A DNA stretch of 35,511 nucleotides from IMG/VR virus record IMGVR_UViG_3300044729_000688, positions 1-35,511 of that record; one strand, written 5' to 3'. The notes under the pieces are model-generated. The model was not told the DNA's origin, searched no databases, and saw only the letters and a program-made list of their open reading frames with translations. Source of the DNA: a virus. This document shows positions 3,932-32,208 of the stretch, piece after piece (the first letter of the stretch is position 1; every line of letters starts with the position of its first letter). A program made the position numbers and the translations under genes.

Positions 3932-5503
3932 TTATGGTTTATAGAAAACAAATACCGGTTCATATTTCAACCACATACCATTAACTTTGCAGAAGTTCTT
4001 TGCTTTTGGTAAACCAGTCTCAGAATCCACACGATTACCACCAGGCATCTGAGCCAAAGACATTTTTAATTTGCCTTTGTATTGCATACCAAGTTCTTCT
4101 AGAATTTTTCTGCTATCTTCTTCAAGTGGTAACATATCACCTCCAAACACAGCGTCGGCAATATTCCAGAGCAGATAACGATCATGCTGTAGCCATTCAA
4201 CAGCAGTCTCAAGTGTGGGCCGTAAGAAACCTTCTCTCCATTCTTCGTACTGCCCAAACTTTTTATATGATTGTGTTGGATCTTCTGAATATGCTTCTTT
4301 AGCAAAGTAAGGTGGTGATGTAAAGACAAGATCAAGTTTGCCTTTGTGTTTTTGGAAGTTTGCATCATCTCTTATTACTTCAGAACCTAGTTGATATATT
4401 TCCGTTTGTGTGTGGGCATGTTCATCTTCCCACAGTCCACCTTTTCTCACATTCTGTCTGTAGAAGTCTGCGACCTCATGATATTTTGTACGACCTGGGC
4501 TAGTATTATGATCGGTATTAGGATCAGTCCCAATATATAAAATATTCCTGTTGTCACAAACAGACATAGCACCCAGCAGGCGCCCAGACCAACCAGAAGA
4601 AGGATCATAAATGCGGATAAGAGGTTGTCCAATAAGGTGTTCTGTGAATTTTTCATACAAATACTTTGCAGTTAGTGGTGGAAAATTTACAGCATATTGA
4701 CAGAATGAAACACGAAAAGCTTTGAGTCCGACAGGAAATAATTTTTGTTTGAACTCATATGGTCTGATAGCATAATGTTCAGATTTTTCATAATCAACAT
4801 TTGTTTTACATCTGTCTGGTATATCTAATTTCTCTATATCATCTTTATGTATAATCAGATATTTCTGATTCTTTAATTCTTCATTGTAACCAGTATATTC
4901 TTTGTCTATGTCTTTTGGTTGGAGCCAGTAGTCCCATTTCTCTTGCTTCCTAAACTCTTTCTCGAACTCAGTAATCCACCCAATAGCATCATCGGATACA
5001 GGAAGATATCCATAACGCTCAATCTCGTTCGATTTAGCAACAAAAGAATAATGGTAAAAAGAATCCCGTTTAAAATGACGGGTAGCATATGTGATAAATG
5101 TGTCAAGTAATTCATCCTTTGCAAAATAATCATAGATGGATTTACCATCATCTTTTTTTGTATAGTTAATGCGTGTTTTCATCATGGTAGGAAACCATTG
5201 ATTGACAGCATTGCCTACAACACTTGTATTTCTAATTACATCTTTTTCGCCTGTCAACTCATCAACTACTTCAAACTTATGTACAGGGAAAGAGTGCATT
5301 TGATTGAATTGTTCTATGATTTCGTGTTCATCATAGCCAACTCTTGGTGGAAGATTATGATTATCCCATAAATCTACAACAGTCTTGCGAAGATCAATTA
5401 CCCATTGACGAAACTCATCTTTGGACATCCAGAGAACTTCTTCAAAGTATTTATTGACAGGAGAATCTATAAGTTCTCTGTTTTTTTCATAAAACCATTT
5501 CAT
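3932..5503 (-). CDS. DNA methyltransferase-like protein (amino-methyltransferase fold)
   Basis: A 523-residue protein. The C-terminal half has IYDPSSGWSGRLLGA at residues 298-312, an AdoMet-binding motif I, and TSPPYF at 395-400, the catalytic motif IV of N4-cytosine/N6-adenine methyltransferases. Motif I precedes motif IV by about 90 residues. The N-terminal 290 residues (Trp/Tyr-rich, with NQWFPTMMKTR) have no family I recognise and may recognise the target or a partner. Such enzymes protect phage DNA from host nucleases. No restriction endonuclease gene is present, so it is an orphan. The start overlaps the stop of the hydroxylase-like gene as ATGA, so the two are made together. The recognition sequence cannot be read from the gene. 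Confidence 0.82.
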   Translation of the reverse strand: MKWFYEKNRELIDSPVNKYFEEVLWMSKDEFRQWVIDLRKTVVDLWDNHNLPPRVGYDEHEIIEQFNQMHSFPVHKFEVVDELTGEKDVIRNTSVVGNAVNQWFPTMMKTRINYTKKDDGKSIYDYFAKDELLDTFITYATRHFKRDSFYHYSFVAKSNEIERYGYLPVSDDAIGWITEFEKEFRKQEKWDYWLQPKDIDKEYTGYNEELKNQKYLIIHKDDIEKLDIPDRCKTNVDYEKSEHYAIRPYEFKQKLFPVGLKAFRVSFCQYAVNFPPLTAKYLYEKFTEHLIGQPLIRIYDPSSGWSGRLLGAMSVCDNRNILYIGTDPNTDHNTSPGRTKYHEVADFYRQNVRKGGLWEDEHAHTQTEIYQLGSEVIRDDANFQKHKGKLDLVFTSPPYFAKEAYSEDPTQSYKKFGQYEEWREGFLRPTLETAVEWLQHDRYLLWNIADAVFGGDMLPLEEDSRKILEELGMQYKGKLKMSLAQMPGGNRVDSETGLPKAKNFCKVNGMWLKYEPVFVFYKP

Positions 5504-6603
5504 TGTAGTATTAACTCTTTAAGATTTTTGTTTGTCTTTACATCAACAACTAGATGTATTCTATCTTCATCACCTTCATTAATGACAGTGTGAGGTTTTC
5601 TTGTATCAAGTACCCAACATTCACCAACTTTCATATTGACTTCTTTTTTATTCCCCGTCGGTTCCCAAACACCGAACCTAACTTTTTGATTAGTCCGAAT
5701 AGGAAAATGTAACCTAGATAAACAATCGATGTTAAGACCAGAATCTGGATCCACTTGGTCTGTATGACGGGTAAGCTCACCGCCGCCAGGAACAAGACGC
5801 ATGAACCTAATACGATGTAATTCCGCATCGCCAAGAAACTCAAGTAGTCTATCAATCTCTGGAAACTCAGCACGAAGGTAAGTATTTTGAAGATAAAATT
5901 CTTCATCTTTATGTTCCTCTTTCCATTTCTTACTCATTTCTACGGGTTTTTCAATACGCATAATATCTGGTGTATAACCACGCAGAGATATAGCCGACCA
6001 AGATTTTTTCTTGTTGTAGTTGCTGTAATGATTCTGGAATTTAATATTTAGGTTTTCTAGTTTAGCTGCGATTTGTTCTATGATATCAGAATCGACAGGA
6101 ATATTCAACTGTTTTATGGCAATCTTTTCGACAGGATCCACCTTTGGAAAAGACCTTGGTATTACACCTTCTTTAAAATAGACACTGTAGATTTCACCAA
6201 ATGTAGTGATTTTGGCGCCAATATATTCAAAATGCTGTTGTGCAATATATCTGGTAGTTTTATCTTCTGCCCAAACATATAGCCACGTATTACCTTCTGC
6301 TTTCTCACAAACATCTTCAATATAATCATCAGTACCACGAAGTTTGGTAATCACATGATCACCAGGTACTTTAGTTCCAATATTAATACCTTGATACATT
6401 GTAATAGGTGATGATTTGCTTACCTTAGACAAGACATGAGAACCAGAATCACTTAATCGCAGAAGGCCTTTGTGTAAATCTTCTGCAATATTGTTTTTCT
6501 TGTATTCAGCAAAAGGTGAATCTGCAAACTTATTATGGTCTGCATAGAGTGATTCAACCGACTTGAGGTAATCCAGTTCGTACCCGTGCTGCCAATCTTT
6601 CAT
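5500..6603 (-). CDS. Aspartyl/asparaginyl beta-hydroxylase-like 2OG/Fe(II) oxygenase with N-terminal extension
   Basis: A 367-residue protein of two parts. The C-terminal part (about 260-355) is a double-stranded beta helix: RHTDQ gives the HxD metal pair H280/D282, GECWVLDTRKPHTV gives the distal H338, and DRIHLVVDV gives R348 for 2-oxoglutarate. This is the pattern of the Asp/Asn beta-hydroxylase family, which modifies proteins. The N-terminal part (about 60-145), with WLYVWAEDKTTRYIAQQHF and FGEIYSVYFKEG, faintly resembles the end of a GNAT acetyltransferase; I would not assign it. The ATG at 6603 has AGGAAAG upstream and overlaps the end of the deformylase gene by 50 bases. The methyltransferase gene follows with a 4-base overlap. 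The substrate is unknown. Confidence 0.75.
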   Translation of the reverse strand: MKDWQHGYELDYLKSVESLYADHNKFADSPFAEYKKNNIAEDLHKGLLRLSDSGSHVLSKVSKSSPITMYQGINIGTKVPGDHVITKLRGTDDYIEDVCEKAEGNTWLYVWAEDKTTRYIAQQHFEYIGAKITTFGEIYSVYFKEGVIPRSFPKVDPVEKIAIKQLNIPVDSDIIEQIAAKLENLNIKFQNHYSNYNKKKSWSAISLRGYTPDIMRIEKPVEMSKKWKEEHKDEEFYLQNTYLRAEFPEIDRLLEFLGDAELHRIRFMRLVPGGGELTRHTDQVDPDSGLNIDCLSRLHFPIRTNQKVRFGVWEPTGNKKEVNMKVGECWVLDTRKPHTVINEGDEDRIHLVVDVKTNKNLKELILQ

Positions 6604-27310: not shown

Positions 27311-28090
27311 TTAGTTCAGGAAAAATTCTAATGGAGCACCGTAATTGGTTTCCATTTCTTTTTCTAATTGGTCTATCTCATTCATAGCATCCTCATAAAT
27401 CTTGTCTCCATTTAACGTGACACCACCCAACAACTGAACACCTTGAAACTTTTTAAGATTGTCTCCCCAATTACGTTTGATGAGTGCTGTAGCATATCGT
27501 TTGAGCCAACGATCATCCCAGACAGCATTATAAACATCTGGATTAATCAAAGCATAACATTCTGCGACAACAATGGTACCAACAGGTGCTTCTGAGAATC
27601 CCCATGCCCAATCGATAAACAACTTATGCATGTGTCTTTGAAAACGAATAGGTACTTCACCAGTAAACATTATCTCTAGGGAACGAAGATGTTGTTGTGT
27701 TAATGTATAGTTAATATACGATGCTGAGGTGAAGTCATAGAGTTCATTTAAACGTAATTGGTATCTTAGGTCAAACATATTAATAGTTGCCTGAGAATCT
27801 TGCAGAGGAAAGATACGAGTAACACCAACAATATTTAAAGAATTATTTGCTTGGTCTTTAGTGACAGATGGCCTCATGTCGATATAGCGATTATCAACGT
27901 CTTGCTGAGTTACTGCTTTGATGTAATATACCTTTTGAAGGCCGTCGAAATGATAGTCTTGCCAGTATTGCAAGGCATCGTCAATTCTGTCCTCTACCTG
28001 TTCATCGTCAATATTGATGTCAATTACAGGAAACCCCAAACGACGAAGGCAGTAGTCTTTGAATTCTTGTCTGTTAGTTATTTGTGCCAT
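27311..28090 (-). CDS. 13: Neck protein gp13
   Basis: A 259-residue protein. Opening QITNRQEFKDYCLRRLGFPV and following INIDDEQVEDRIDDALQYWQ, then EIMFTGEVPIRFQRHMHKLF and YATALIKRNWGDNLKKFQGV, match gp13 of T4-like phages. It forms a dodecamer on the portal as the head-completion adaptor. T4 gp13 has 309 residues. It starts the neck block after the oxygenase cluster, and a late-like CATAAATA lies at 28119-28126. No clear ribosome site is seen. Confidence 0.92.
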   Translation of the reverse strand: MAQITNRQEFKDYCLRRLGFPVIDINIDDEQVEDRIDDALQYWQDYHFDGLQKVYYIKAVTQQDVDNRYIDMRPSVTKDQANNSLNIVGVTRIFPLQDSQATINMFDLRYQLRLNELYDFTSASYINYTLTQQHLRSLEIMFTGEVPIRFQRHMHKLFIDWAWGFSEAPVGTIVVAECYALINPDVYNAVWDDRWLKRYATALIKRNWGDNLKKFQGVQLLGGVTLNGDKIYEDAMNEIDQLEKEMETNYGAPLEFFLN

Positions 28091-28145: not shown

Positions 28146-28628
28146 TCAATATCCTTTAGGTTTTGCTGACCATGGGTTAACCGCAACAGATACTCTTTCG
28201 CCTGTATAATGTTCAACTCCATGATATATTCCAGGTGAAAATATGATAAGTCTGTTTGTTTTTGGTTTAATTCTTTCAGATTCCGTCATGAACCATCCTC
28301 CTTCGAGATCCTGAATCTCAGCGTAATATACAAGACTGCATATTGGAGTTGAAAGTTTTCCTGTCTGTTCCATCAAAACTTCATCTTTATCGATATGCCA
28401 TTCTGGTTTGGTGCCATTATGTGACCAATATTCACATCCTACCATAGAAGATAGATTGAAAAACTTAGATGCTTCTTTTAGTAGTAAATATATAGGAGAT
28501 ATGTCATATTCAAGTTCTTTATATAACTTATCGAGCCATTGCTGTTCTTTAGATGAAATTGATTTAAAATAACTAGCAACTGCTTTTTGCTTTATATCTT
28601 CAAGCACATTATCAATAACAATTATCAT
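28146..28628 (-). CDS. 2OG/Fe(II) oxygenase-like protein A
   Basis: A 160-residue protein from the ATG at 28628; a TTG nine bases upstream is less likely. WHIDKDE gives the metal pair H78/D80. YHGVEHYTGERVSVAVN gives H136 and R145. Between them ICSLVYYAEIQDLEGGWFM is the central beta core. This is the pattern of the prolyl-hydroxylase-like superfamily that uses 2-oxoglutarate and iron to oxidise proteins, nucleic acids or small molecules. It overlaps the next oxygenase gene by 17 bases. It is the most complete of the four by motif. The substrate is not known. Confidence 0.78.
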   Translation of the reverse strand: MIIVIDNVLEDIKQKAVASYFKSISSKEQQWLDKLYKELEYDISPIYLLLKEASKFFNLSSMVGCEYWSHNGTKPEWHIDKDEVLMEQTGKLSTPICSLVYYAEIQDLEGGWFMTESERIKPKTNRLIIFSPGIYHGVEHYTGERVSVAVNPWSAKPKGY

Positions 28629-29166
28629 TTTTTTCAAGTACCAAAGCTAAAGTAAAACGATACTGTGCTGCAATATGAGATTGTGGTCTAATTGTATGTG
28701 GAATACAGGCATCAAAGACTAATAGCCTACCTGGTGTGTATGCAGAAGCAAAAACAACGTCTTTTATATCTTCACTATAAAATAATGTTTCTCCATGCCA
28801 ACCATCTCTCCATTCTAAATTAACATAGTATAATAATATTTTCTTTTCTGGGTGTGCGTGAACATAATTTGTATCTGCCGCAGTAGATAGATTTAACACT
28901 GCGGTTACATTATCATATCCTTCAAGTTCTTTTCCTGCTTCTGAATTTATAATTTTTTGTATAATACCAAGATTATTTAAATCTTCGAGTGAGTATATGG
29001 AGTGAAGAAATCGATTCCCTTGATTTTCTATGATCGCACCATCTGCCCAACCAATTGTAAAATAAGAATTTTGTGCAAATGTGTAAATATCTTGTCTATA
29101 TTTTAAATCAAATAAATTATCATAAATGCATATGCGTTTACTACGTTCAACTTGATATTCTTTCAT
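28612..29166 (-). CDS. 2OG/Fe(II) oxygenase-like protein B
   Basis: A 184-residue protein. YVHAHPEKKILLYYVNLEW gives a metal site of His and Glu (H105/E107, HxE instead of HxD; H103 is an alternative). GWHGETLFYSED is the GGETxFY-like turn, and PGRLLVFDACIPHTIRP with H157 and QYRFTLAL with R170 complete the site. This is the phage form of the prolyl 4-hydroxylase-like family. The start ATG at 29166 has GGAGAAA before it. A late-like CATAAATA lies at 29223-29230. It overlaps oxygenase A, so both should be made together. Confidence 0.78.
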   Translation of the reverse strand: MKEYQVERSKRICIYDNLFDLKYRQDIYTFAQNSYFTIGWADGAIIENQGNRFLHSIYSLEDLNNLGIIQKIINSEAGKELEGYDNVTAVLNLSTAADTNYVHAHPEKKILLYYVNLEWRDGWHGETLFYSEDIKDVVFASAYTPGRLLVFDACIPHTIRPQSHIAAQYRFTLALVLEKNDNCY

Positions 29167-29222
29167 ATTTTCTCCATAATATAAATTCTAATTAACTTTA
29201 AAAACATTTAGCAATATTACGA

Positions 29223-29230
29223 TATTTATG
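29223..29230 (-). promoter_or_regulatory. Late-like promoter CATAAATA before oxygenase B
   Basis: One mismatch from TATAAATA in the 67-base gap after oxygenase C (stop at 29234). The leader to the ATG at 29166 is about 55 bases. It has the same spelling as the gp13 site. Confidence 0.45.
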
Positions 29231-29233
29231 TAC

Positions 29234-29764
29234 TCAAATCGCTGTCATTAAAATGCGTTCAACTTCATCGTATTTCATTTTTGAGAAAGAAAATGACAAA
29301 ATAATTCTACGTTTTCCTGGAGTCAACATGGCAGAGTGTGGAATACTGGTATTCAACAACCACCAATCTCCAGTTTTTGCTTGAAATTTTCCTATGTCTT
29401 TTAATGTTTTGTTTTCGTTATTCCATTCATAAAAATGTGTAGTTTCATCATTTGTCTGAAGATATACATTTAAAGCACAAAATCTTTTGTAATCGATATG
29501 AGCCATCATCGCAGGATTAATAATCTCATTCGCTGTAAGAGATAGTATAATAACTTCAGGAATCTCTATTTCAGTAAGACTTTTTGGTAATAATGTTAGT
29601 GCATAATCACGAACTTCAGAACTTACTGTGAAAAAGTCAATAGGAACCTTATTAACATTTTTCATTGCCAACCCATATTTTTGAGGTTTGGAAAAAGAAG
29701 TTTTAAAAGTCATTGACGATATAGCGTCAATATTAAAATTTTGATTTTTTAAAAAGAAGTACAT
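29234..29764 (-). CDS. 2OG/Fe(II) oxygenase-like protein C, Asp-hydroxylase type
   Basis: A 176-residue protein. MMAHIDYKRFCALNVYL gives H89/D91, GDWWLLNTSIPHSAML gives H143, and KRRIILSFSF gives R152 or R153. The phrase G-D-x-W-x-L-N-T-x-x-P-H is shared with protein D and with the oxygenase at 5500-6603, so these three form a subgroup. The N-terminal 80 residues are unlike known domains. The gene overlaps D by 16 bases. Its substrate is unknown; fibre or other virion proteins made from the same region are candidates. Confidence 0.7.
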   Translation of the reverse strand: MYFFLKNQNFNIDAISSMTFKTSFSKPQKYGLAMKNVNKVPIDFFTVSSEVRDYALTLLPKSLTEIEIPEVIILSLTANEIINPAMMAHIDYKRFCALNVYLQTNDETTHFYEWNNENKTLKDIGKFQAKTGDWWLLNTSIPHSAMLTPGKRRIILSFSFSKMKYDEVERILMTAI

Positions 29765-30312
29765 GTAAATTCTCGCATCACTTCTTCTAAAGGAATATTA
29801 AAGTAAACTTGCACTACGTGTCTACAATAATTTTCTTCAGCGTTAATACTATACACAGCGTGAGGAATCGTAGTGTCTAATACCCAAACATCTCCAGATT
29901 CAGCAATAAATGATTGTGCAGGAATTAAAGTTTCAGTATCAACAAAAAAATAACCATTATTTACACTATTAGTTTCACGTTTTAATTTTTTAATATCCTC
30001 TTTATAAAATACTGTTTTTTCACCAGAAACAGAAATATAAAAATTTATAACACATTTGTCTTGAGTATGTACATGTGGAGAAGCTTTTGAGATATAAGTT
30101 TTACATACACCAATACATTTATTTCTAATGCTTTTGGGTATTGCGTGTAAAACACTTGCAGTTTCTTTTCTATTTAATTTTTTTCTCAATACTTCAACAT
30201 TAAAGCTTTTATTATCTTTTGTATATTCTTCTATGTGTTCTCCTAAAATTTCAGAAGATGAAGAAAAATCTATATCAAGTTTAGCTTCTATTGGCAATTT
30301 AAAAGCAAACAT
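29749..30312 (-). CDS. 2OG/Fe(II) oxygenase-like protein D, Asp-hydroxylase type
   Basis: A 187-residue protein. SPHVHTQDKCVINFYISV holds H80, H82 and D85 as possible metal ligands, an HxH...D version of the usual HxD. GDVWVLDTTIPHAVYS gives H151 and CRHVVQVYFNI gives R164. The same G-D-x-W-x-L-D-T-x-x-P-H phrase occurs in C. The unusual first motif means activity should not be taken for granted. The ATG overlaps the previous stop as TAATG, and the end overlaps C. Confidence 0.68.
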   Translation of the reverse strand: MFAFKLPIEAKLDIDFSSSSEILGEHIEEYTKDNKSFNVEVLRKKLNRKETASVLHAIPKSIRNKCIGVCKTYISKASPHVHTQDKCVINFYISVSGEKTVFYKEDIKKLKRETNSVNNGYFFVDTETLIPAQSFIAESGDVWVLDTTIPHAVYSINAEENYCRHVVQVYFNIPLEEVMREFTCTSF

Positions 30313-30818
30313 TATGTCACGAAAAAACCATAAGAATCTACATTGGCCTGAACTGTTTTGATTTCAGAAGAAAAGTGAATTTGTGCTGGTGCATTAATTG
30401 TTTTTTCATTAATTTTTATTGAACCAACTCCTAAAAATAATTTTGAATCTTTTGGTATTTCCAAACTCTGATTTGATAGTAAAACAAAAGGAGAAACTTT
30501 ATTATGTAGAGGTTTTTTAGATTCGTTCATGAATGGACTGAGACATAAAATTTCCAAATCTTCTACAAAATTTATTTTCCATTCTCCTCTAGGATAAGGC
30601 TTAGTTGAGGTGCAATCATTTTTTTCTCTCTCAATAACCTCACCTGTTGTTGTTTCGGTAGCTACTGCACGTCCTTTTGTATGTAACCAAATATACTCAA
30701 AAGAAGTTCCAACTTGAAAAATATTATCAATAATAGGATCAATTGTATTCACGGACCCCGCCGGAAAAAAAATTTTAGTAACTACTAAATCAAATGCTTT
30801 ATGAACAGTAGCTTCCAT
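30312..30818 (-). CDS. Unknown beta-rich protein, possibly cupin-like
   Basis: A 168-residue protein I do not recognise. It is strand-rich, with FEYIWLHTKGRAVATETTTG, KPYPRGEWKINFVEDLEILC and SKLFLGVGSIKINEKTI. A strand, a short turn with Gly and a following strand is the order of a cupin or jelly roll, but the metal-binding His set of active cupins is not visible. It sits between a 111-residue unknown and the oxygenases, coupled to both. It might be a virion or fibre-associated protein. Confidence refers to the gene, not to a function. Confidence 0.6.
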   Translation of the reverse strand: MEATVHKAFDLVVTKIFFPAGSVNTIDPIIDNIFQVGTSFEYIWLHTKGRAVATETTTGEVIEREKNDCTSTKPYPRGEWKINFVEDLEILCLSPFMNESKKPLHNKVSPFVLLSNQSLEIPKDSKLFLGVGSIKINEKTINAPAQIHFSSEIKTVQANVDSYGFFVT

Positions 30819-30819
30819 A

Positions 30820-31155
30820 TTAAACCTCTATAATATCCGAAGATGTTGGTGCTAAATTTTCTACAGAATATGAAGATACTTGTCCAATCATGTTCCTATA
30901 TTTTTCTATGTTTTCTTGATTATCAATAAATTTTTCTTCACGTTCTTGCTGTTCAGCGTGATACATTCCAGAAACTGCAATTCGTTTTTTTATTTCTTCC
31001 GGATCATCTACGTCTGGCCACATACGCAATGGTTGAAATGCATATCTAGTATACATATCGGGATCTTGATATCTAGTTGTGTCTGAGGCAAATGAAACAA
31101 TCAAAGATTTAGATTCTTCTTCGTATTCGTGTATTTTCATGTAAACGGTCTGCAT
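30820..31155 (-). CDS. Unknown small protein after the adhesin gene
   Basis: A 111-residue protein. It begins VYMKIHEYEEESKSLIVSFA, a short beta sheet, then YTRYAFQPLRMWPDVDDPEE, which seems a domain with a conserved Phe-Gln-Pro, and ends with a helical charged segment (HAEQQEREEKFIDNQENIEK). I have seen similar genes beside fibres in marine T4-like phages but cannot name a function. A fibre-assembly or fibre-cap role is possible. It lies 15 bases after the Gly-rich gene and one base before the cupin-like gene. Confidence 0.6.
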   Translation of the reverse strand: MQTVYMKIHEYEEESKSLIVSFASDTTRYQDPDMYTRYAFQPLRMWPDVDDPEEIKKRIAVSGMYHAEQQEREEKFIDNQENIEKYRNMIGQVSSYSVENLAPTSSDIIEV

Positions 31156-31170
31156 AATTCTTCCTTTAGT

Positions 31171-32208
31171 TTAAGCTACACCACCTAATCTTGTACCAGT
31201 AGCTGGCCAAGTAACAAATGGATTTCCAACAATGTAATTTCCCGGAGCTCCTCCTGTTCCTCCAGAAGCTACTACTGTTCTTGTCATTGTTCCGGATCCA
31301 GCAGTTCCAGGTGATCCTGAGGCCCCTACACTTCCACCTGCACCTCCTGCTCCTCCAGTTAATGGTGCTACTGGTCTGGCTGGGCCACCTGCACCACCGG
31401 CAGATGGTGATCCATTTGATCCTGCAAACCCAGGTGCTGTTGCTGTGTTGGTTAAAGGGGTAGGCATCGTTGCAGTACCTCCCGAAACACCACCACCAAT
31501 TGCAAAGCCAAGGCCAGCTCCTCCACCACCTCCACCACCTCCTACATTTCTCCTAACTGGAGAGGCTTTAACCGGTGAAGATGCGTTTGCACCCGATCTT
31601 CCTGCACCACCACCGCCTCCTCCTCCACCACCTGCTATTGTTCCATTGTTGGTTATCGTGACTGGACGGTTTACATTTACAGCATTAGCACCTTTTACTC
31701 CTGGAGTACCAGAAACTGCTAGTGGTGACGTAGGAGATGTAGGAAATCCTGGATATACTACTGAGCTTGCTGGACCCCCAACACCACCATCACCTCCCGC
31801 ACCTGCTATTATTCCATTGTTTACTATTGTAACGGTGTCTGTAGGACTGAATTGATTTGGCACAATCATAGCATAACCTACTGCTACAGAACCGGTAACT
31901 ACACCGGTAGGACCAACAGTCACAGTAATATCTGAAATTCCAGGAACGTAGGTAGGACCTCTATTATTGTAGACATTATAGTGTATAACGGAACCAGTAA
32001 TAGGTAAAGGAATTGCAATTCTGTTACTTGCACCATAGAAATTAGAAAGTGCAATTTGTCCGGAAGTTGGAATAGCAGCATTGACCGGAGCGTTAGCGAC
32101 CAATGGACCACCACGATAATATTCACTTATCGCATGTGGAGCAGATCCTCCAAACTCAGTAACGATTGAATTGATTGATATTGCTTGACCTGGTCCTGGT
32201 ATCGCCAT
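31171..32208 (-). CDS. Gly-rich distal fibre/adhesin-like protein
   Basis: A 345-residue protein. The first 65 residues (QAISINSIVTEFGG, AIPTSGQIALSNFYGASN) are a short conserved head of marine phage fibre proteins. Residues 130-345 are Gly-rich, with runs of Gly around 192-200 and 220-228, and repeats such as VTIVNNGIIAGAGG and VTITNNGTIAGGGG. The Gly-rich type recalls gp38 adhesins of T-even phages, in which polyglycine-II helices hold receptor-binding loops (known for phage S16). Here the loops between Gly runs (PVKASPVRRN, PLTNTATAPG) may contact the host. It follows two S74 fibre genes by two bases. A receptor-binding role is an inference. Confidence 0.7.
   Translation of the reverse strand: MAIPGPGQAISINSIVTEFGGSAPHAISEYYRGGPLVANAPVNAAIPTSGQIALSNFYGASNRIAIPLPITGSVIHYNVYNNRGPTYVPGISDITVTVGPTGVVTGSVAVGYAMIVPNQFSPTDTVTIVNNGIIAGAGGDGGVGGPASSVVYPGFPTSPTSPLAVSGTPGVKGANAVNVNRPVTITNNGTIAGGGGGGGGGAGRSGANASSPVKASPVRRNVGGGGGGGGAGLGFAIGGGVSGGTATMPTPLTNTATAPGFAGSNGSPSAGGAGGPARPVAPLTGGAGGAGGSVGASGSPGTAGSGTMTRTVVASGGTGGAPGNYIVGNPFVTWPATGTRLGGVA

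Follow-up and report, generated by a model that had tools for sequence, protein, structure and literature searches.

Putative 2OG-Fe(II) oxygenases encoded in a mobile cassette with a Gp38-type tail-fibre adhesin in uncultivated aquatic phages

Why a phage should encode four oxygenase-like proteins side by side in the vicinity of its tail-fibre genes is the question raised by the DNA stretch analysed here (IMG/VR record IMGVR_UViG_3300044729_000688, 35.5 kb; all of its 35,511 nucleotides are referred to as the window). The window stems from a T4-like phage, as seen from genes for a clamp loader, gp46/47-like proteins, a helicase, gp23, portal, tube, sheath, terminase and neck proteins. The nearest named relatives of its gp23 are found in the Methylophilales phages Melnitz (66.7% identity). 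The four open reading frames described in the initial annotation (A to D, Table 1) are real and are located on the minus strand in the order X-D-C-B-A-gp13; read from the fibre end, a glycine-rich fibre protein and Y precede X. The close spacing of the genes was confirmed, with 26 nt shared by A and B, 16 nt shared by C and D, and D adjoining X. The assumed location between fibre and neck genes holds on the gp13 side but not as direct adjacency to the fibre, because Y and X lie between D and the fibre gene. Late-type expression, which had also been assumed, was not supported by a scan for T4-late promoters, in which matches to TATAAATA occurred at chance level and none was located near the cluster.

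Table 1. Features of the window treated in this study
Feature	Assignment	Coordinates	Strand	Basis
Adhesin	Glycine-rich tail-fibre adhesin, Gp38-type, cassette gene 1	31171..32208	-	Family PF05268 matches, phrog_11439
Y	111-aa protein between adhesin and X, cassette gene 2	30820..31155	-	Position, conserved alignment
X	168-aa protein, varies between cassettes, cassette gene 3	30312..30818	-	Family of 36 aligned
D	D-type oxygenase-fold protein, H80-x-H82-x-x-D85...H151...R164	29749..30312	-	Model
C	C-type oxygenase-like protein, H89-x-D91...H144	29234..29764	-	Homology to D
B	Prolyl-hydroxylase-fold protein, H103-x-H105...H157...R170	28612..29166	-	Model, PF13640 in family
A	2OG-Fe(II) oxygenase, canonical HxD	28146..28637	-	PF13640 match
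gp13	Neighbour of gene A	27311-28090		
E	PF05118 Asp/Asn hydroxylase-like protein, outside cassette	5500..6603	-	PF05118 match

Profile search, fold prediction and, for C, homology to D gave oxygenase-fold signatures for all four gene products, in agreement with their original assignment. A is a member of the 2OG-Fe(II) superfamily both by curated profile (PF13640, 5.6e-7, above the cut-off; at E 0.001 or better it is also found in 25 of 27 sequences of the family) and by the HxD...H...R motif, which is kept across the family with small variants in some members (e.g. WHKDTDE). The true start of A is probably the internal ATG at 28628, the position at which the remaining family members start. 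Homologues of A are encoded in the cultured cyanophages S-SCSM2R (L007 6986-10876) and Sf-FS3 (L261 4968-9667), in both cases next to a second 2OG gene and to a cluster of sugar-epimerase and glycosyltransferase genes. A and B are under purifying selection (dN/dS about 0.10).

The model of B (pLDDT 89.0) matched PHD2/EGLN1 (E 8e-8, TM 0.6-0.7), PolD and a bacterial P4H. B alone scores below the PF13640 cut-off, and 14 of 37 family members match this profile. With the HIF prolyl hydroxylase PHD2 and bacterial P4H, B has the DSBH fold, the second histidine and the arginine in common, whereas the identity amounts to about 15-18% and H-x-D is replaced by H-x-H. Among 65 distinct sequences, 64 retain H103-x-H105 and one divergent member has HxD, whereas E107 varies; HxE, given for B in the initial annotation, is therefore not its metal site. 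H157 and R170 are kept in all 63 ungapped sequences. Thus, judged by fold and family profile, B is a homologue within the 2OG-Fe(II) superfamily, but a non-canonical one that departs from the HxD/E...H facial triad. Human P4H loses its activity when the aspartate is replaced by histidine (3-His variant; PMC2767507), so that B may not hydroxylate. A single-protein scan of viral contigs with B returned few relatives, and a search of cellular genomes for a host gave nothing. Both A and B match phrog_274, cyanophage proteins of which are named 'DNA endonuclease V' (e.g. L005 9010-9618) and are homologues of B with HxD. This name was rejected for A and B, as both have matches to PF13640 in their families and B folds like PHD2, and it appears to be an annotation error passed on between records.

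Homology between C and D was evident from BLASTP (E 1e-8). C (GDWWLLNTSIPH), D (GDVWVLDTTIPH) and E (GECWVLDTRKPH) all contain the phrase G-[ED]-x-W-x-L-[DN]-T-x-x-P-H noted earlier. This is the C-terminal phrase of PF05118, a profile which E matches and to which C and D score below the Pfam cut-off: C has a weak match (E 0.15), D has no Pfam match, and none of 38 C/D family members matches PF05118 at E 0.01. C carries the HxD...H triad, and its profile support is indirect. The model of D (pLDDT 90.3) has an oxygenase/cupin fold resembling YcfD, NO66 and FIH among PDB folds, but also cupins such as HppE and oxalate decarboxylase; in a viral library it matched uncharacterised proteins of uncultured phages and cyanophage 2OG-type proteins. 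D thus has the DSBH fold and deviates from the HxD/E...H facial triad. A PDB sequence search gave weak matches only, and a single-protein scan of viral contigs with D found no relative. The C/D tree, computed with the motif columns left in, has two fully supported sides (100/100). C-type proteins have HxD in 47 of 47 cases, with K or R three residues later, and all 29 D-type proteins have H-x-H-x-x-[DE]...H in place of HxD, together with the second histidine and the 2OG-type arginine. Where both types occur in one genome (window, L096, L098, L100, L101), the D-type gene precedes the C-type gene. On these alignments, C and D are old paralogues in sister clades, so that A to D make up three families (A, B and C+D) instead of four. 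The differing first motifs had been interpreted as a sign of different substrates, a view not upheld for these paralogues, as the triad differences mark whole clades. Four tandem C-type genes are located at the start of one contig (L104 199-2646), with no adhesin or Y in the stretch examined; a fragmentary C/D match with stop codons, perhaps a decayed copy, lies between X and B in another (L121, G011:C1:5056-5130). Roseobacter phage CRP-3 was rejected as a cultured carrier of the cassette: its one C-type gene (HxD) is next to that for thymidylate synthase, and the part of the genome that was read encodes neither the adhesin nor X or Y.

E had been counted as a fifth member of the cluster. It belongs to PF05118 (6.1e-14, 52.6 bits, cut-off 22.6), and homologues with 80-87% identity are located at the same place in three T4-like relatives, beside the same methyltransferase-like gene; a deformylase-type neighbour was detected in two of these three. 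No cassette is found at gp13 of the three relatives and no full C/D match anywhere in them. E was rejected as a cluster member because of these homologues in relatives lacking the cassette, and its conserved position identifies it as a gene of the phage group that is independent of the cluster. The 523-aa protein encoded next to it (window 3932-5503) has a weak C-terminal DNA-methyltransferase match, is 89-93% identical in the three relatives and always adjoins E.

The glycine-rich fibre protein is probably an adhesin of the Gp38 type. It shares 45-62% identity with 38 relatives and matches the tail fibre family phrog_11439 (6.3e-8). Taken singly, the window copy has no match to PF05268 (GP38), whereas 22 sequences of its 39-member family do (best 3.5e-12). 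In the alignment, glycine runs are broken up by variable stretches, as in the distal adhesins of T2/S16/PP01-type phages (gp38 of PP01 and S16; PMC12892980). Unlike these, the cassette adhesin, which is likened to Gp38 by sequence, is found in non-T4 phages too, has an extra conserved N-terminal part and is followed by Y, X and oxygenases. Of 131 adhesin hits on the plus strand, 122 are followed immediately by Y. A Y-family member had no match in 50,697 named phage records, and a search of cellular genomes with Y for a host returned a single contig, which had been binned with a Bacteroidetes MAG but is probably stray phage DNA. X matches neither Pfam nor PHROG profiles.

Scans of viral contigs with alignment queries for gp13, C/D, B and Y yielded about 240 loci, from which family HMMs were built. 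Comparison of the neighbouring genes across these relatives revealed a fibre-gene link stronger than the one initially claimed, namely a conserved, mobile cassette with the fixed order Gp38-type adhesin, Y, X, D-type, C-type, F, B, A, H, G and up to six oxygenases per cassette. G matches PF13640 (1e-15) and H matches PF13759 (7e-9); F, for which Pfam gave no match, was counted as an oxygenase solely on account of its HxD...H pattern. Among 47 distinct Y-selected cassettes of uncultivated viruses, taken from the best-scoring 80 of 149 Y loci and scored with families first seen in cassettes, one or more oxygenases are encoded by 46 and three or more by 43. The cluster of four, which had been considered unusual, is therefore not so for this cassette, in which three to five oxygenases are normal. 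Within 5 kb of Y, 478 oxygenase-family hits were located downstream and 2 upstream, counts which are redundant and partly circular. Desaturase-like membrane proteins are encoded in or beside a few cassettes (L108 3311-4108, L168 7634-8365, L159, L163, L107, L225), with a match to FA_desaturase below the cut-off (5e-5).

The cassette is found in T4-like phages and in unrelated, non-T4, HTVC023P-like phages. Three non-T4 cassette contigs, typed from few proteins, encode a phrog_3287 virion protein (3/3) and a phrog_38 terminase (2/3); one of the contigs with this terminase also has a phrog_1216 portal and a PolA-type polymerase, and the terminase of one non-T4 cassette contig is 55% identical to that of Pelagibacter phage HTVC027P. 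Among closer relatives, one genome (L008) has a gp13 99% identical to that of the window, other fibre genes and no cassette. In L014-L018 (not L017) and L024, adhesin, Y and X adjoin gp13 and no oxygenases are located beside them, so that the oxygenases are not essential to the adhesin. L003/L021 have B, A and gp13 in common with the window (89% nt) as well as the adhesin end and most of Y (87%), with one D-type gene and a divergent X in place of C, D and X. The dS values between the window and L003/L021 are lower for B (0.18) and A (0.13) than for gp13 (0.74), consistent with later sharing of B and A. The cassette is thus exchanged in blocks, between unrelated phages too, and we regard both the cassette itself and the linkage of the oxygenases to the adhesin as secure. 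As a separate observation, a T4-like relative with adhesin, Y and X and without adjacent oxygenases (G001) encodes three other PF13640 proteins elsewhere in its genome (13052-14596 and 99143-99403 noted).

The linkage of the oxygenases to the adhesin is fixed in phages that are not related to each other, and it would be accounted for most simply if the enzymes modified proteins encoded by the cassette itself. A to D might form the oxygenase half of a mobile host-recognition cassette and modify the adhesin and/or X post-translationally, a tentative reading that we consider quite possible. In this reading, side chains of these proteins would be hydroxylated while virions are assembled, with A and B (F and G in other cassettes) acting mainly on the adhesin and C and D mainly on X; hydroxylation would tune the stability of the fibre tip or its receptor contacts. 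That the enzymes are active, use 2OG and have the adhesin or X as substrate is inferred. Protein hydroxylases (PHD2, YcfD, NO66 and FIH) are among the structures most similar to B and D. Pairwise distances of the adhesin, Y and X correlated with those of the oxygenases, for X most strongly with the C-type (0.87) and D-type (0.73) proteins and for the adhesin with F (0.81) and G (0.78), but not significantly with the D-type (0.12), which hints at X as the partner of C/D and the adhesin as that of the other oxygenases, although neighbouring genes co-segregate and physical linkage alone could give such correlations. When X sequences were grouped by the presence or absence of C/D, and adhesins by that of the oxygenases, no residue was found that is conserved solely where the enzymes occur. 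In its most specific form, the proposal is that, in a mobile receptor-binding module of uncultivated aquatic phages, three to six oxygenases in fixed order would be dedicated to the post-translational hydroxylation of the adhesin (and X), and that two of these enzymes would use rebuilt metal sites (HxH...H and HxHxx[DE]...H); this version is rather doubtful.

The enzymes could instead act on the receptor side, modifying lipid A, LPS sugars or an outer-membrane protein of the host during infection, so that superinfection or the loss of progeny to debris is blocked. In that case the oxygenases would stay together with the adhesin since they have to suit the receptor that it binds; co-transfer fits equally well. 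The desaturase-like gene in some cassettes and the sugar-epimerase and glycosyltransferase genes beside the A homologues of S-SCSM2R and Sf-FS3 point in this direction, and PF05118 also includes the lipid A hydroxylase LpxO. On the other hand, B and D resemble protein hydroxylases most closely in fold, and the distance correlation between X and C/D suggests a partner within the cassette. Modification on the receptor side is a serious alternative, albeit an unlikely one.

Less probable still is that B and the D-type proteins are cupin-fold proteins put to another use, be it as non-catalytic chaperones, as virion parts or as three-His dioxygenases not using 2OG, with only A and C being canonical. 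HxH replaces HxD in both, the corresponding variant of P4H is inactive, and the model of D also matches HppE and oxalate decarboxylase. Conversely, the second histidine and the 2OG-type arginine are kept throughout both families, and the acid at +5 in 29 of 29 D-type proteins, where C-type proteins have K or R, suggests that the metal site was rebuilt and not lost. Moreover, AspH is active with only two histidines and a water (PMC13168262). A role in general auxiliary metabolism or DNA repair (2OG/NtcA modulation, AlkB-like repair), with the site beside the adhesin as a hot spot for cargo, is improbable, even though such roles were proposed for cyanophage 2OG oxygenases (PMC3037559, PMC2984593) and E and further 2OG genes sit elsewhere in such genomes, because neither a cassette order and content fixed across unrelated phages nor the distance correlations with adhesin and X are expected of random cargo.

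Multiple 2OG oxygenases have been described in cyanophages and pelagiphages, with metabolic or repair roles proposed (PMC3037559, PMC2984593, PMC9599517), and EGLN-like folds in marine phages were noted before (PMC12774648). The published cyanophage and pelagiphage 2OG-Fe(II) oxygenases (PMC3037559, PMC9599517; phrog_274, phrog_61) belong to the same superfamily and likewise occur several per genome. They are, however, scattered or located beside ferrochelatase, and none was reported in an ordered adhesin cassette such as that of the window. The T8SS/curli module of marine myo- and podoviruses (PMC9599517) is also a multi-gene cassette moving between phage families, but comprises other genes with another function, whereas the oxygenase cassette is tied to an adhesin. 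No paper tying 2OG oxygenases to a Gp38-type adhesin cassette was found in the open-access literature. To our knowledge, neither HxH...H nor HxHxx[DE]...H sites are present in characterised 2OG enzymes. Neither the enzyme superfamily nor the adhesin type is new, but their conserved association appears to be undescribed so far, and two of the metal motifs are unusual.

As an engineered three-His P4H is inactive (PMC2767507), the clade-wide HxH motifs are natural tests of the 2-His-1-carboxylate rule. The linkage to a Gp38-type adhesin provides a testable alternative to metabolic and repair roles, in which hydroxylation of the fibre tip or of the receptor would serve host recognition. It suggests that the phages with this cassette may chemically modify their own docking proteins, or what these bind.
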